DNA of 39,075 nt from positions 1-39,075 of IMG/VR virus record IMGVR_UViG_3300042560_001788; one strand, given 5' to 3'. The notes below the pieces were generated by a model, which searched no databases, had not been told where the DNA came from, and was given only the letters and a program-made list of their open reading frames with translations. The stretch comes from a virus. Both the position numbers and the translations under genes were made by a program. This document shows positions 13,635-26,089 of this stretch, piece after piece (positions within the stretch are counted from its first letter, which is position 1; each line of letters starts with the position of its first letter).

Positions 13635-14332
13635 GCGACTTACGGCCGACGCAATTCACGCTTGAGTCTGCCGAGCGGATCGCCAACGTGGTGCGAGCCG
13701 TCGAAACGGCTCCGCGCCCAGCGCGGCCGCTGGTGTTTGATCGCATCCCCGAAGGGCGGATGCCAAAGGCCGTCAAGATGGGCACGTTCACCGGCGCGTG
13801 GCCAGTCGGCGGCACCAAGACTGTCACGTTTCGCAATCAGACGACGACTCCAAACACCGCTTCGGTGGTGAATCTGTTTTTTCCAATCACGAACTCGGCA
13901 GCCAGCACACGCGACTGCGCGATCGCCAGGGACGGAACGGCGTGGTATCTGATCGACGTGCCGCTGGCTACGGCGTCGGCGGTGTTTGCTTCAAGCACAG
14001 CATCGCGCACTGTCTTCGGGACTGGCAGCACGTCAGTGATAAAGTTCTTTAGCCCGGCAAGCACGTCAGTAATAAATTTTTTCAGCCCCGGCAGCACTTC
14101 GGAATTTACGTTTGTCACCGGCGTTTCTGCTTCGCTTAACACGACCGACTGCACTATCACTGTTACCGCGCAGACGGCCACGGCTACTAGCATTTCGATG
14201 GGCGGAACACAAACGGCTACAAGCATTTCGATGAGCGGAACACAAACTGCCATCAGCGTTTCTATGTCTGGCACGCAGACCATGACGATTCTCGGAACTA
14301 CTTTCACGGCAACGTACCTAACATTCGGGTGA
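13631..14332 (+). CDS. Repeat-containing tail protein
   Basis: A 233-residue Ser/Thr-rich protein starting at GTG 13631, inside the previous stop. The first half is a beta domain (FTGAWPVGGTKTVTFRNQTTTPNT). The second half consists of two arrays of 11-residue repeats: about three copies of S-T-S-V-I-x-F-F-S-P (DNA 14024-14122) and three of A-T-S-I-S-M-S-G-T-Q-T (DNA 14180-14278). Such repeats suggest an elongated beta structure in the tail tip or a fibre. No enzyme motif is seen. Confidence 0.7.
   Translation: MSDLRPTQFTLESAERIANVVRAVETAPRPARPLVFDRIPEGRMPKAVKMGTFTGAWPVGGTKTVTFRNQTTTPNTASVVNLFFPITNSAASTRDCAIARDGTAWYLIDVPLATASAVFASSTASRTVFGTGSTSVIKFFSPASTSVINFFSPGSTSEFTFVTGVSASLNTTDCTITVTAQTATATSISMGGTQTATSISMSGTQTAISVSMSGTQTMTILGTTFTATYLTFG
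14024..14122 (+). repeat. 33-bp tandem repeat array 1
   Basis: Three consecutive in-frame 33-bp units at 14024-14056, 14057-14089 and 14090-14122, sharing GCA-GCACGTCAGT-type starts and TTT-rich centres. The first two are clearly similar and the third has diverged. Each encodes one 11-residue unit of the tail protein. Confidence 0.8.
14180..14278 (+). repeat. 33-bp tandem repeat array 2
   Basis: Three 33-bp units at 14180-14212, 14213-14245 and 14246-14278. The first two are nearly identical (few substitutions) and the third is diverged; a further degenerate unit may follow. They encode the ATSISMSGTQT repeat. Confidence 0.85.
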
Positions 14333-22350: not shown

Positions 22351-23208
22351 ATGGCCACGACTCAATTTGAGACAGCGGAATATGTTTCCGGCCCAGCTGG
22401 CAAGGGCAAGGTTTCGAAGATAACTCGCTATGGATGGATTCTCCGCGACAGGCCCGGCGAGTTCATGTCGATTGACAAGCACGAACTGAAGGTTGACCAC
22501 GCTTACCAGAGAGACCGGGTGCTGATCAACAAGGTCCGCGACATTCAAGCAAACTGGTCCTGGGCTGGCTGCGGTTGCATCCTTGTTGCGATGAGACCTG
22601 ACGGTTCGTTTTGGGTCTTCGACGGTCAGCACAGGGTTCTTGCCGCACGGAATCGCGCCGACATCAGCGAACTGCCATGCTTGGTTTTTGAGTGCGACGA
22701 CGTGACACAAGAGGCGGCGGGCTTTCTTGTGTGCAACGGCGAGCGGAAGCCTGTCACCGCAGCGGCAAAGTTCAAGGCTCTTGTGCTGACTGGCGACAAG
22801 GCGGCAGTCGCTGTTCAAGAGATTTTTGATCGGCTCGACGTGTCGCTCGTTGAGCAGCCTGCTCGCGCAGGCGAAATCAAGTGCATCGCGAAGTGCCTTT
22901 ATCTTGCCGAATTAGACAAAGGCCTGTTTGAGAGGTCGCTTGAGGCAGCCGTTGAATTGTGCGGCGAATCGCCAGTTACCAAGGACATTCTGGAAGGGCT
23001 GGCGTGGATCGAACGAAAGCACGAACTGCTTTCTGATCATCGATTCATGAAGCGGCTCTGTTCTGTTTCCGTTGCTGAAATCATGACAAGCATCGCGAAG
23101 TTTGCCGCCGCCGAAGGCAAGCGAGGGGAGCGCGTTTGCGGAACCGCCATTCTCAAGCTGGTCAACAAGGGGCTGAGGCACAAATTTGCTGACGAAGGCG
23201 ACGAATAG
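22351..23208 (+). CDS. ParB-like / DGQHR-motif protein
   Basis: A 285-residue protein with an N-terminal ParB-like fold: KVDHAYQRDRVLINKVRDIQANWSWAGCGCILVAMRPDGSFWVFDGQHRVLAARN. The DGQHR signature (residues about 91-95) is the nucleotide-handling motif of ParB/DndB-like proteins. The rest is helical and could bind DNA. Roles could be nuclease, segregation-like or defence-related. Base composition is less GC-rich than neighbours, hinting at separate acquisition. It has its own RBS (AAAGGAGACG). Confidence 0.7.
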   Translation: MATTQFETAEYVSGPAGKGKVSKITRYGWILRDRPGEFMSIDKHELKVDHAYQRDRVLINKVRDIQANWSWAGCGCILVAMRPDGSFWVFDGQHRVLAARNRADISELPCLVFECDDVTQEAAGFLVCNGERKPVTAAAKFKALVLTGDKAAVAVQEIFDRLDVSLVEQPARAGEIKCIAKCLYLAELDKGLFERSLEAAVELCGESPVTKDILEGLAWIERKHELLSDHRFMKRLCSVSVAEIMTSIAKFAAAEGKRGERVCGTAILKLVNKGLRHKFADEGDE

Positions 23209-23286: not shown

Positions 23287-23523
23287 ATGTTGAGCGAAAA
23301 AGGAAGCACTTACACGGATCTTCTTGTTCGAGAGATATGCGCTCACCTTGAGTGGATGGCTACTGATCCATCACGCGCTGCAGGTGAAAGCAATGCGTTT
23401 TACAAAGCGGCTCGGTCGATTGGCAGGAACAGAGACGAGTTTGTAATTCGCACGCTGCGGCAAATGGAATGGCACGGCCGTGTAAAAACGGCCGACGGCA
23501 AGGAGGCAGAGCGTGTCCGCTGA
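23287..23523 (+). CDS. Small protein upstream of the replication gene
   Basis: A 78-residue protein with GGGAGG (23276-23281) before the ATG. Sequence TYTDLLVREICAHLEWM...NAFYKAARSIGRNRDEFVIRTLRQMEWHGRVKTA suggests a small helical or winged fold. It overlaps the replication gene by 11 nt, so it is likely translated with it. Function unknown. Confidence 0.65.
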   Translation: MLSEKGSTYTDLLVREICAHLEWMATDPSRAAGESNAFYKAARSIGRNRDEFVIRTLRQMEWHGRVKTADGKEAERVR

Positions 23524-24409
23524 CACCAAGGTTGACGTGTACCTGCCGCTCTACGTCAGGGACTTCCTGACCAGCACAATCGGCTGGTCTGCAGAAGAGC
23601 GAGGGCACTACCTCACGCTGCTGATGCTCCAGTGGGACCGCGACGGGCTCCCCGCTGACTTGGCCGCCCTTGACCGGCTTTCGCCTGGCGTTGGCGACGT
23701 TTGGGCCATGCTGCAGGACAAGTTCCCGGTGGAGGCGGATGGGCAGCGGCGAAACGCGAGGCTGGAACAGCACCGCGACAGGGCCGTGGAGTTGCGACGG
23801 AAGCGATCCGAGGCAGGCAAGGCTGCGGCGGCAGCCCGAGTCGGATCAAGCAATCGTTCATCAAACGTTGAGCAAACGTCCATCAATCGTTCATCAATCG
23901 ATAACCATCCACCTTCACCTTCACCGTCACCTTCAGGTTCAGGGATTTCTTCTAGCGAAGAAATCATTCAACCGGCTGCGCCGGTTGTTGCTACGAGCGA
24001 TCCGCCGAAGCGTCGGACTCGCTCGCAGCACCACAACGCGGTGAAGTGGTCTGAGTCTGATGGCTGGCAGGGGATCAGCGACTCCGACCGCAAGACCTGG
24101 GCCGAGGCATACCCTGCCTGCGTTCTGGACATCGAGCTGGTCCGCGCTTCGGAGTGGCTGAAGTCGAACCCGACGCGCGCAAAGAAATCGAACTGGCGGC
24201 GGTTTGTGGTGTCTTGGCTGACCAGATCGCAGGACAGGGGTGGCACGAACCGCTCCGCTGGCAAAACGCCAGAGGACATGGCAAAGCGGCAGATGCTTGA
24301 ACGAAAGGCCCGCGAGTTTTCGCAATACCGCCCTGCCCCATACCGCACGCCGAAAGAAGTGTTGGCCATTTCCGAAGGATTGAAACTCAAGGACGAGGAA
24401 AACCTATGA
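23513..24409 (+). CDS. Replication protein with DUF1376 domain
   Basis: A 298-residue protein. Residues 7-100 (VDVYLPLYVRDFLTSTIGWSAEERGHYLTLLMLQWDRDGLPADLAALDRLSPG) are a DUF1376 (YdaU-like) domain, typical of phage replication initiators. A Ser/Pro-rich disordered linker follows (about 110-160), then a helical C-terminal domain (VKWSESDGWQGISDSDRKTWAEAYPACVLDIELVRASEWLKSNPTRAKKSNWRRFVVSWL). Start is GTG 23513 behind AAGGAGG. The DNA coding for the linker holds tandem 11-bp repeats and two perfect hairpins, a probable origin, as in lambda O. Confidence 0.85.
   Translation: MSADTKVDVYLPLYVRDFLTSTIGWSAEERGHYLTLLMLQWDRDGLPADLAALDRLSPGVGDVWAMLQDKFPVEADGQRRNARLEQHRDRAVELRRKRSEAGKAAAAARVGSSNRSSNVEQTSINRSSIDNHPPSPSPSPSGSGISSSEEIIQPAAPVVATSDPPKRRTRSQHHNAVKWSESDGWQGISDSDRKTWAEAYPACVLDIELVRASEWLKSNPTRAKKSNWRRFVVSWLTRSQDRGGTNRSAGKTPEDMAKRQMLERKAREFSQYRPAPYRTPKEVLAISEGLKLKDEENL
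23855..23898 (+). repeat. Four tandem 11-bp iterons
   Basis: CGTTCATCAAA (23855-23865), CGTTGAGCAAA (23866-23876), CGTCCATCAAT (23877-23887) and CGTTCATCAAT (23888-23898), continued by CGAT. The 11-bp period is not a multiple of three, so the protein does not repeat here. The selection must therefore act on DNA. The period is one helical turn, which would align initiator proteins on one face. Confidence 0.85.
23855..23987 (+). other. Candidate replication origin
   Basis: Inside the replication gene, in order: four 11-bp iterons (23855-23898); a hexamer-periodic CACCTT-like strand-biased tract (about 23910-23942); a perfect hairpin GATTTCTTC/GAAGAAATC with TAGC loop (23944-23965); and a perfect hairpin CAACCGGC/GCCGGTTG with TGC loop (23969-23987). 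Iterons plus a strand-biased stretch plus hairpins inside the initiator's linker are the organisation of lambdoid origins. Confidence 0.7.
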
Positions 24410-24642
24410 CCGAAACAGCAGCCGCAACAGCCCGACCGCCCCTGACCGCCCGCCAGCGTGAGCTTCTCGACTGGATTCGTGAGAACTCGCGTCTCGCGGC
24501 CCCGACCGTGCGAGAGATCGCAGCTGCCCACGGCATCGCCTCGCCAAACGGCGTGCAGTGCCACCTGAACGCCCTCCAAAAGAAGGGCTACCTGCGCCGC
24601 AACCCGAACAAGGCCCGCAGCGTGGAGGTGGTCGATGAGTGA
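24406..24642 (+). CDS. LexA-type DNA-binding domain protein
   Basis: A 78-residue protein matching the N-terminal winged helix of LexA: PLTARQRELLDWIRENSRLAAPTVREIAAAHGIASPNGVQCHLNALQKKGYLRRNPNKARSVEVV. The SPN-x-x-x-x-HL-x-AL-x-x-KG pattern is the LexA recognition helix. The C-terminal Ser-Lys autoprotease is absent, so it cannot self-cleave. It may compete with host LexA or repress early genes. Coupled to its neighbours by ATGA and an 8-nt overlap. Confidence 0.82.
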   Translation: MTETAAATARPPLTARQRELLDWIRENSRLAAPTVREIAAAHGIASPNGVQCHLNALQKKGYLRRNPNKARSVEVVDE

Positions 24643-24880: not shown

Positions 24881-25149
24881 CGCTCTCGCAACTCACGCTC
24901 GTTTCGGCGGGCATTTTGATCCAAGCCCTGACGTTCGCTCTGGGCATTGTGGTTGGTGTTTCACTCTTACGAAAGGAATCGAACGATGACCGCGACTATC
25001 GCAAGGAAGCGCAAGAGTTCTGGCATAGCCATGCCAATCGACTCGCTGAGAAAGGCCCTGGCTGCGGTGCGGGCTGCCGTTCCAAGCCGAAGCCCGAAGC
25101 CGATCCTGTTGAACGTTTTGCTGGCAAACGGCGGGATCACGGCGAGTGA
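24877..25149 (+). CDS. Small membrane protein overlapping the clamp gene
   Basis: A 90-residue frame starting at ATG 24877 in an ATGA overlap. It encodes an N-terminal membrane span (LTLVSAGILIQALTFALGIVVGVSLL, about residues 6-31) and a polar, Cys-containing tail (GCGAGC). Its last 164 nt overlap the sliding clamp gene in another frame, so the tail may be under little selection. The coupled start supports reality. Confidence 0.5.
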   Translation: MTLSQLTLVSAGILIQALTFALGIVVGVSLLRKESNDDRDYRKEAQEFWHSHANRLAEKGPGCGAGCRSKPKPEADPVERFAGKRRDHGE

Positions 25150-26089
25150 TCTCGAACTCCAGGTGTCGGCCGAGGTGCCGTACACCGACGCGCCGCTGCT
25201 GCTCCCGTTCGCCCGCTTGCAGGCGATCCTCGGGGCGGCATCGGGCGACGAGGTGACGCTGACGCTTGGCGACACGTCCTGCACCGTGAGCGTTGGCGGT
25301 GGCACTTGGACGCTGCCGACCGAGGATGCGGCCGAGTTCCCCCGGTGGGAGCCGACCACCGTGAAGCCCATCTGCCGCGTGCCGTGCGACCAGTTCGTGC
25401 GGGCCGTGAAGGCGGTGGCCTACGCGACGGACACCGATTCGAGCCGGTTCGCCCTGGGGGCGGTGCTCGTCGAGGTGAAGGATGGCACGGTGACGCTGGT
25501 CGGCACGGACGGGCGGCGGCTCTCGTCCTACGGCATTGAGGTTGACCAGGCCGTGGATGACTCCACCACGCTGATCCCGGCGCGTGCGATCCTGACCATC
25601 AGCAGCATCGCCTCGCACAGCGAAGGGGCGGTGCAGTTGGAGGCCACCGACCGCGAGGTGGTGGCGACCATCGACGGCACGGTGGTGACGGCCCGGCTCG
25701 TCGAGGGACGGTTCCCCAAGTGGCGTGACGTGATCCCCGAGCGGGACGCGAAGGCCACGCTCGTGAACGGGGCCGAGCTCCTGGCGGCGACGCGGCAGGC
25801 GGCCATCGTGACAAGCGAGCAGTCGAAGGGCGTGACGTTCGCGTTCGTCGAGAACGGCATCCACCTGACGGCTCAGAGTGCCGAGGCCGGGCAGTCGAGC
25901 GTGACGTGCGGGCTGCTCGAGGCGGGCCTGACGGCGAGCGTGGCGCTCGACCCCGGCTTCGTGGTCGAGTTCCTGCGGGGCGTGGACGAGGCCGAGCCGG
26001 TGGAGGTCGAGGCCGTGGACGCTCAGAGCGCGGTGGTGCTGCGCTGCGGCGACTGCACCGGGGTCATCATGCCGTTAGCGAAGGACTGA
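24986..26089 (+). CDS. dnaN: DNA polymerase III beta subunit (sliding clamp)
   Basis: A ring-shaped processivity clamp that tethers DNA polymerase. The 367-residue length equals bacterial beta clamps. Three repeated domains can be traced; family-specific segments are DSLRKALAAVRAAVPSRSPKPILLNVLLANGGITASDLELQ, FALGAVLVEVKDGTVTLVGTDGRRLSSYGI and EGRFPKWRDVIPE, and the C-terminus ends VVLRCGDCTGVIMPL. The start is ATG 24986 behind GAAAGGA. Phage-encoded beta clamps are uncommon. Its own polymerase is not encoded, so it probably recruits the host enzyme. Confidence 0.92.
   Translation: MTATIARKRKSSGIAMPIDSLRKALAAVRAAVPSRSPKPILLNVLLANGGITASDLELQVSAEVPYTDAPLLLPFARLQAILGAASGDEVTLTLGDTSCTVSVGGGTWTLPTEDAAEFPRWEPTTVKPICRVPCDQFVRAVKAVAYATDTDSSRFALGAVLVEVKDGTVTLVGTDGRRLSSYGIEVDQAVDDSTTLIPARAILTISSIASHSEGAVQLEATDREVVATIDGTVVTARLVEGRFPKWRDVIPERDAKATLVNGAELLAATRQAAIVTSEQSKGVTFAFVENGIHLTAQSAEAGQSSVTCGLLEAGLTASVALDPGFVVEFLRGVDEAEPVEVEAVDAQSAVVLRCGDCTGVIMPLAKD

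Follow-up and report, generated by a model that had tools for sequence, protein, structure and literature searches.

The origin of phage lambda, ori-lambda, lies in the middle of gene O, between the coding regions of an N-terminal DNA-binding domain and a C-terminal partner-binding domain (PMC7466680, PMC5043065, PMC6022878). In the Bacillus phage SPP1, the available part of the source places oriL inside the initiator gene 38 (PMC6316719). Rac also has an active origin, oriJ (PMC3945230), but its exact position was not found in the literature searched. The literature searched yielded no paper linking DUF1376 to an origin; five papers there bring the family up, never in a title or abstract. A locus in the window, the whole 39,075-nucleotide stretch of viral DNA analyzed here, very probably belongs beside these examples: positions 23851-24030 are proposed to be the replication origin of a tailed phage, located inside its own initiator gene. 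By analogy with lambda O and SPP1 gp38, the best reading is an in-gene origin in the DUF1376/YdaU family. Firing of the origin is inferred; binding and replication data do not exist for any of the members considered here.

The gene concerned (23513-24409, plus strand) has a GTG start and encodes a protein of 298 aa, the proposed replication initiator. The protein meets the criterion for the DUF1376/YdaU family, matching PF07120 with an E value of 1.3e-7 and 32.4 bits against a curated cut-off of 30.1, while its PHROG match is ‘primosomal protein’ (7.5e-12). The AlphaFold2 pLDDT profile delimits a folded, helical N domain (aa ~5-116), a disordered linker (aa 116-169) and a folded, helical C domain (aa ~175-242). 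The element at 23851-24030 corresponds to linker residues ~113-172, between the two folded domains, and the disorder of the linker leaves its codons at liberty to carry signals at the DNA level. Foldseek searches of the PDB gave only non-significant matches, mostly to winged-helix regulators and to no solved initiator, and searches of BFVD recovered other DUF1376 proteins. The full-length protein has no close match in cultured phages; the cultured DUF1376 phages considered below were reached via the N domain of a relative (L060). The host of the phage could not be identified, since a scan of genome contigs did not turn up a close relative in any bacterial genome.

The element begins with five tandem 11-bp direct repeats, or iterons (23851-23905, plus strand), which share the core CAA[A/T]CG and follow one another at helical-turn spacing in the order CAATCGTTCAT, CAAACGTTGAG, CAAACGTCCAT, CAATCGTTCAT and CAATCGATAAC. 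It is proposed, without binding data, that the N domain binds them. All of the repeats are direct and on one strand. Tandem Repeats Finder reports period 11, 4.5 copies and 79% matches, so that the copies may be counted as four to five, and a separate repeat search gives a spacing of 11,11,11. No other array in the 39 kb combines at least four copies with a period indivisible by 3. At 14024-14247 there are two distinct tandem duplications of 33 bp, an in-frame length, with 2.1-2.2 copies each and ~80 bp between them. The iterons are followed by a hexamer tract of about four CACCTT units flanked by CATCCA and GGTTCA (23906-23941, plus strand), the proposed strand-opening region, within which Tandem Repeats Finder places CACCTT x4 at 23910-23935. 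The lowest-GC 100 nt of the whole window are 23852-23951, yet these still have 44% GC.

Downstream of the tract lie three hairpins, all given on the plus strand. Hairpin 1 (23944-23965) has a 9-bp stem and the 4-nt loop TAGC, and hairpin 2 (23969-23987), CAACCGGC-TGC-GCCGGTTG, has an 8-bp stem and a 3-nt loop. The initial annotation had placed 11-bp repeats, a hexamer tract and these two hairpins at 23855-23987, and each was found there. It had missed a third hairpin, the longest (23989-24030), which extends the element to 24030. Hairpin 3 comprises ~17 bp in two stems, the outer GCTACGAGCG/CGCTCGCAGC and the inner TCCGCCG/CGTCGGA, and the copy in the window contains one C-T mismatch. When 23840-24040 is folded as a single strand, the plus strand lies 5.5 sd and the minus strand 6.0 sd below shuffles. 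A role for hairpin 2 as a terminator was considered and rejected: its weak T-rich tail is on the minus strand only, and the gene is transcribed on the plus strand.

The repeats and hairpins are selected as DNA rather than as protein. The 11-bp array was reached in 0 of 400 synonymous shuffles encoding the same protein and in 0 of 400 codon shuffles of the gene, in keeping with the earlier suggestion that the 11-bp period does not come from a protein repeat. Tandem arrays of three relatives (L028, L033, L069) likewise exceed all of their synonymous shuffles. The test scores gapless tandem repeats and is blind to the uneven iteron spacing of lambda. A generic repeat-count test (8-mer, 1 mismatch) proved too weak; it was not significant for the window, most other sequences and several cultured phages, and reached significance for L119, L083, L094, L042 and lambda O. 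Synonymous divergence in a set of 14 relatives is 0.08, 0.01, 0.05 and 0.07 across 23870-24013, with the value of 0.01 over the hexamer tract, against 0.29-0.53 over most of both flanks. The initial annotation had inferred DNA-level selection and, for its origin reading, named conservation at synonymous sites and retention of the repeats and hairpins in relatives as tests; the relatives pass both, and together with the shuffles they bear out selection at the DNA level. The GC-skew check that it also named lends no support, because the skew does not turn cleanly at 23.9 kb.

Relatives with a different linker preserve the layout. A second clade (L005-L008, L026-L033) encodes a different linker protein (RIANAQQTHSKR vs SSNVEQTSINRS) and has about four 11-bp iterons, GCAAACGCAYA, that are different in sequence but phased as in the window. 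Its hexamer tract, (CAACGT)4, occupies the same position, and the order from iterons to tract is unchanged.

The two halves of the element follow different parts of the protein. Relatives that share the C domain have seven N-domain types in total, DUF1376 and six others, and the N-swapped relatives match PHROG ‘replication initiation protein’. Each N type has its own linker repeat motif: CAAWCG with the DUF1376 N domain, and GTAGACG, CCGTCAC/TGTCCGG, GTAACG, GTTACG/GTTGCGC, GTGGCGC or CGTCACG with the six others. Off-diagonal counts in this matrix are few or none, though these very data had served for choosing the motifs, and those of the GTAACG and GTTACG types are related. In the pair L019 and L030, where the C-part DNA is 95% identical and the N-domain DNA 70% identical, the iteron class and hairpin 1 go with the N domain. 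The core of hairpin 2 is present in nearly all relatives with the same C domain irrespective of the N domain, and hairpin 3 is common to different N-domain types. Conversely, three relatives that join DUF1376 to another C domain (L060, L069, L072) retain six 11-bp CAANCG repeats and have neither hairpin 2 nor hairpin 3. Within the limits of such sequence comparisons, it is established that the N domain and the iterons are inherited together, as are the C domain and hairpins 2-3. Recognition of the iterons by the N domain is an inference, as the linker adjoins that domain and simple linkage could give co-inheritance. Counts exaggerate how many events took place, because the relatives are not independent of one another. 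The pairs L047/L055 and L065/L087 (and L040-L089) have ~99% identical C-part DNA and unrelated N-terminal initiator domains, with the junction just 5′ of hairpin 2.

All three stems carry compensatory changes. Among DUF1376-type relatives, such changes preserve the stem of hairpin 1, with T-A replaced by C-G and by G-C in the variants GATTTCTCC/GGAGAAATC and GTCTTCTGC/GCAGAAGAC. Of 27 distinct rows for hairpin 2, 8 have T-A in place of G-C and 2 have A-T in place of C-G; in coding terms, these pair changes combine a P-to-Q replacement with a synonymous change on the other arm. Hairpin 3 shows changes from C-G to T-A and from C-G to G-C, and in one relative (L089) matched deletions shorten both of its arms. 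No G-T wobble pairs in hairpins 2-3 occur among the relatives' rows. Stems were counted on a hand-anchored alignment, MAFFT having misplaced gaps near hairpin 2 and in L089. The rows with compensatory changes are related and represent a handful of events, not dozens.

A wider survey covered 103 diverse DUF1376 genes from viral contigs, of which 37 are related to enteric/Pseudomonas types and 66 are others. A lag of 11 gives the strongest excess over synonymous shuffles in the linkers (z 16.9 for the 37 genes, 11.1 for the 66), and lag 22 is also elevated. The control, the coding region of the DUF1376 domain, has a weaker excess at lags 11 and 22 (z 6.9-8.0 in the 37-gene set; z 3.5 at lag 11 in the 66-gene set), perhaps from codon patterns of the helical domain or from relatedness, and relatedness of the genes likely inflates all of the lag z values. 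A tract of period 5 or 6 is present in 44 of the 103 linkers vs none of the 103 N-domain regions and none of the 73 C-part regions; after codon shuffling, 0.5 such tracts remain on average. The units vary and include GATACA, AGAAG, CAACCA and CACCTT. The best reading of these patterns is that putative in-gene origins recur, hidden, across the DUF1376 family. Near relatives in the set L125-L147 alternate between (GATACA)n and (AGAAG)n at the same place 3′ of the iterons, pointing to fast turnover of tract type. In DUF1376 genes near those of Rhizobium phages (L205-L219), a hairpin-like motif, CCTCACTTCGTTCGG, often comes after the linker repeats, and a similar motif occurs in Komagataeibacter and Acetobacter phages (L114, L119).

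Gene neighborhoods offer functional hints. In cultured phages, the DUF1376 gene is directly upstream of a DnaC-like loader or P-type gene, a DnaA-like gene, or a DnaB helicase, and Rac YdaU includes a DnaT domain. The Pseudomonas phage PfAn1 has an unannotated DUF1376 gene (L120, 1780-2730) just before the putative replication protein P. The gene after the DUF1376 gene of the window encodes a LexA-type HTH protein rather than a loader; this protein of 78 aa (24406-24642) has only the LexA DNA-binding domain (E 4e-21), and its gene overlaps the end of the initiator gene. Neither a helicase gene nor a loader gene was recognized in the window, although the scan left out some small ORFs. Besides packaging and tail genes, the phage has genes for an exonuclease, RecT-like and ParB-like proteins, RusA and a polymerase processivity factor. 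As neither a polymerase nor a helicase was recognized among the scanned ORFs, the phage would need to call on the replisome of its host. A gene for a ParB-like protein/DUF6551 (22351-23208) is located shortly upstream of the initiator, and 0.5 kb downstream of it is a match to PHROG 947, ‘DNA polymerase processivity factor’ (24947-26089, E 5e-57). A phage sliding clamp alongside an otherwise host-derived replisome would be of interest.

Other functions could be proposed for the element. The tract units lie in codon frame (SPSPSP, TSTSTS), as would be the case if the repeats were a by-product of repeated amino acids in a low-complexity linker. That explanation is next to impossible: it is already refuted for the 11-bp array, which never arises in same-protein shuffles; the linker residues vary from clade to clade, yet the DNA architecture persists; and across the family the tract dipeptides are interchangeable, with the short period kept. 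Iterons in or near an initiator gene are often autoregulatory, and the protein might control its own operon by binding the 11-bp repeats, with replication starting elsewhere. Binding itself would look identical, yet an operator would need neither the ordered tract nor the three conserved hairpins downstream, and it would lie 340 bp inside the gene. A search found no promoter-like site around the element, and the window has no second comparable array, leaving an operator quite improbable.

The three hairpins might instead act in the mRNA, influencing translation, stability or transcription pausing, with the repeats incidental. The plus-strand RNA fold is well below shuffles (z -5.0), and compensatory changes do not discriminate RNA from DNA. 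However, the iterons and tract have no stable stems in the RNA fold and are still among the most conserved synonymous sites, and the repeats are helically phased and switch type with the N domain. Rfam contains no match to the element. The commonest pair changes are transversion pairs, without a G-U intermediate in hairpins 2-3, although this is a weak point. An RNA element thus appears quite improbable. Repeated crossover that swaps N-terminal modules could also produce the similarity without any origin function, and from hairpin 2 on the DNA of phages with unrelated N domains is indeed as much as 99% identical. Recombination homogenizes sequence, but it creates neither compensatory stem changes nor matched deletions, and it leaves unexplained the new iterons with the same 11-bp period in divergent lineages. 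A recombination joint is highly improbable as a replacement for the origin and may well be an additional consequence.

If the element is an origin, initiation might proceed in stages. The N domain of the DUF1376 protein would bind the helically phased 11-bp iterons, and the bound complex would open the low-GC region of iterons and tract. The C domain could then recruit the replicative helicase or its loader to the exposed strand beside the hairpins. For the hairpins themselves, one possibility is a structured site for loading or priming and another is a cruciform in supercoiled DNA; this is the least certain step. Iteron binding, strand opening, helicase recruitment and the role of the hairpins are all inferred. 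A broader proposal is tentative and somewhat more likely to be wrong than right: DUF1376 genes would be self-contained, two-key origin cassettes, in which an exchangeable N domain reads the iterons and tract while the conserved C domain reads or uses the hairpin array as a structured site for loading helicase or primase. Specificity would then be changed by swapping the half made up of N domain and iterons at the junction before hairpin 2.

Were the origin confirmed, DUF1376, a widespread phage family without an assigned function, would gain both a function and a cis-site, and origins in many uncultured phages could be located from sequence alone. The relatives would provide a natural series of origin-initiator swaps from which recognition is readable. 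One stretch of DNA would both code for a protein linker and hold an origin, with both still evolving.

The parallel with lambda O drawn by the initial annotation is upheld for layout and not for family membership. As in ori-lambda, there are several iterons and the proposed origin encodes a flexible linker. In lambda a low-GC region follows the iterons; its counterpart in the window may be the stretch of iterons and tract, which includes the lowest-GC 100 nt but at 44% GC is low only in relative terms. The wider arrangement also agrees: the gene is that of a proposed initiator, its disordered linker holds iterons, tract and hairpins, and N domains are swapped with their own repeats. The protein of the window is not homologous to lambda O, for which Pfam and PHROG gave no match, returning only DUF1376 and primosomal-protein matches. 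Lambda, included as a control (L124), has four iterons of ~19 bp that are imperfect inverted repeats and unevenly spaced, whereas the direct repeats of the window are 11 bp long, recur once per helical turn and precede a hexamer tract and three hairpins. A loader gene (P/DnaC-like) does not follow the DUF1376 gene of the window, in contrast to cultured DUF1376 relatives. SPP1 differs in having its own loader, gp39, its own helicase, gp40, and a second origin, oriR, and a hairpin series is not described in the portion of the source that was available (PMC6316719). The ydaU-ydaV region of Rac with oriJ (L122, L117) shares the DUF1376 N domain, the repeat-bearing linker, a hexamer tract of GATACA type and the place before a DnaC-like gene; it differs in its GTTCAAACA-like iteron sequence and, in L122, a DnaT-type C domain. 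In iteron plasmid origins, the repeats are longer and lie outside or beside the rep gene. To our knowledge, these origins have no such hairpin series and their Rep proteins are unrelated to DUF1376. Origins of the P1, RK2 and pSC101 type do resemble the window in having direct repeats in helix phase (PMC5043065). The principle of an in-gene origin is thus already known from lambda and SPP1; the present case departs from both in its protein family and modular swaps, in having direct iterons of 11 bp, and in its hexamer tract and series of hairpins.
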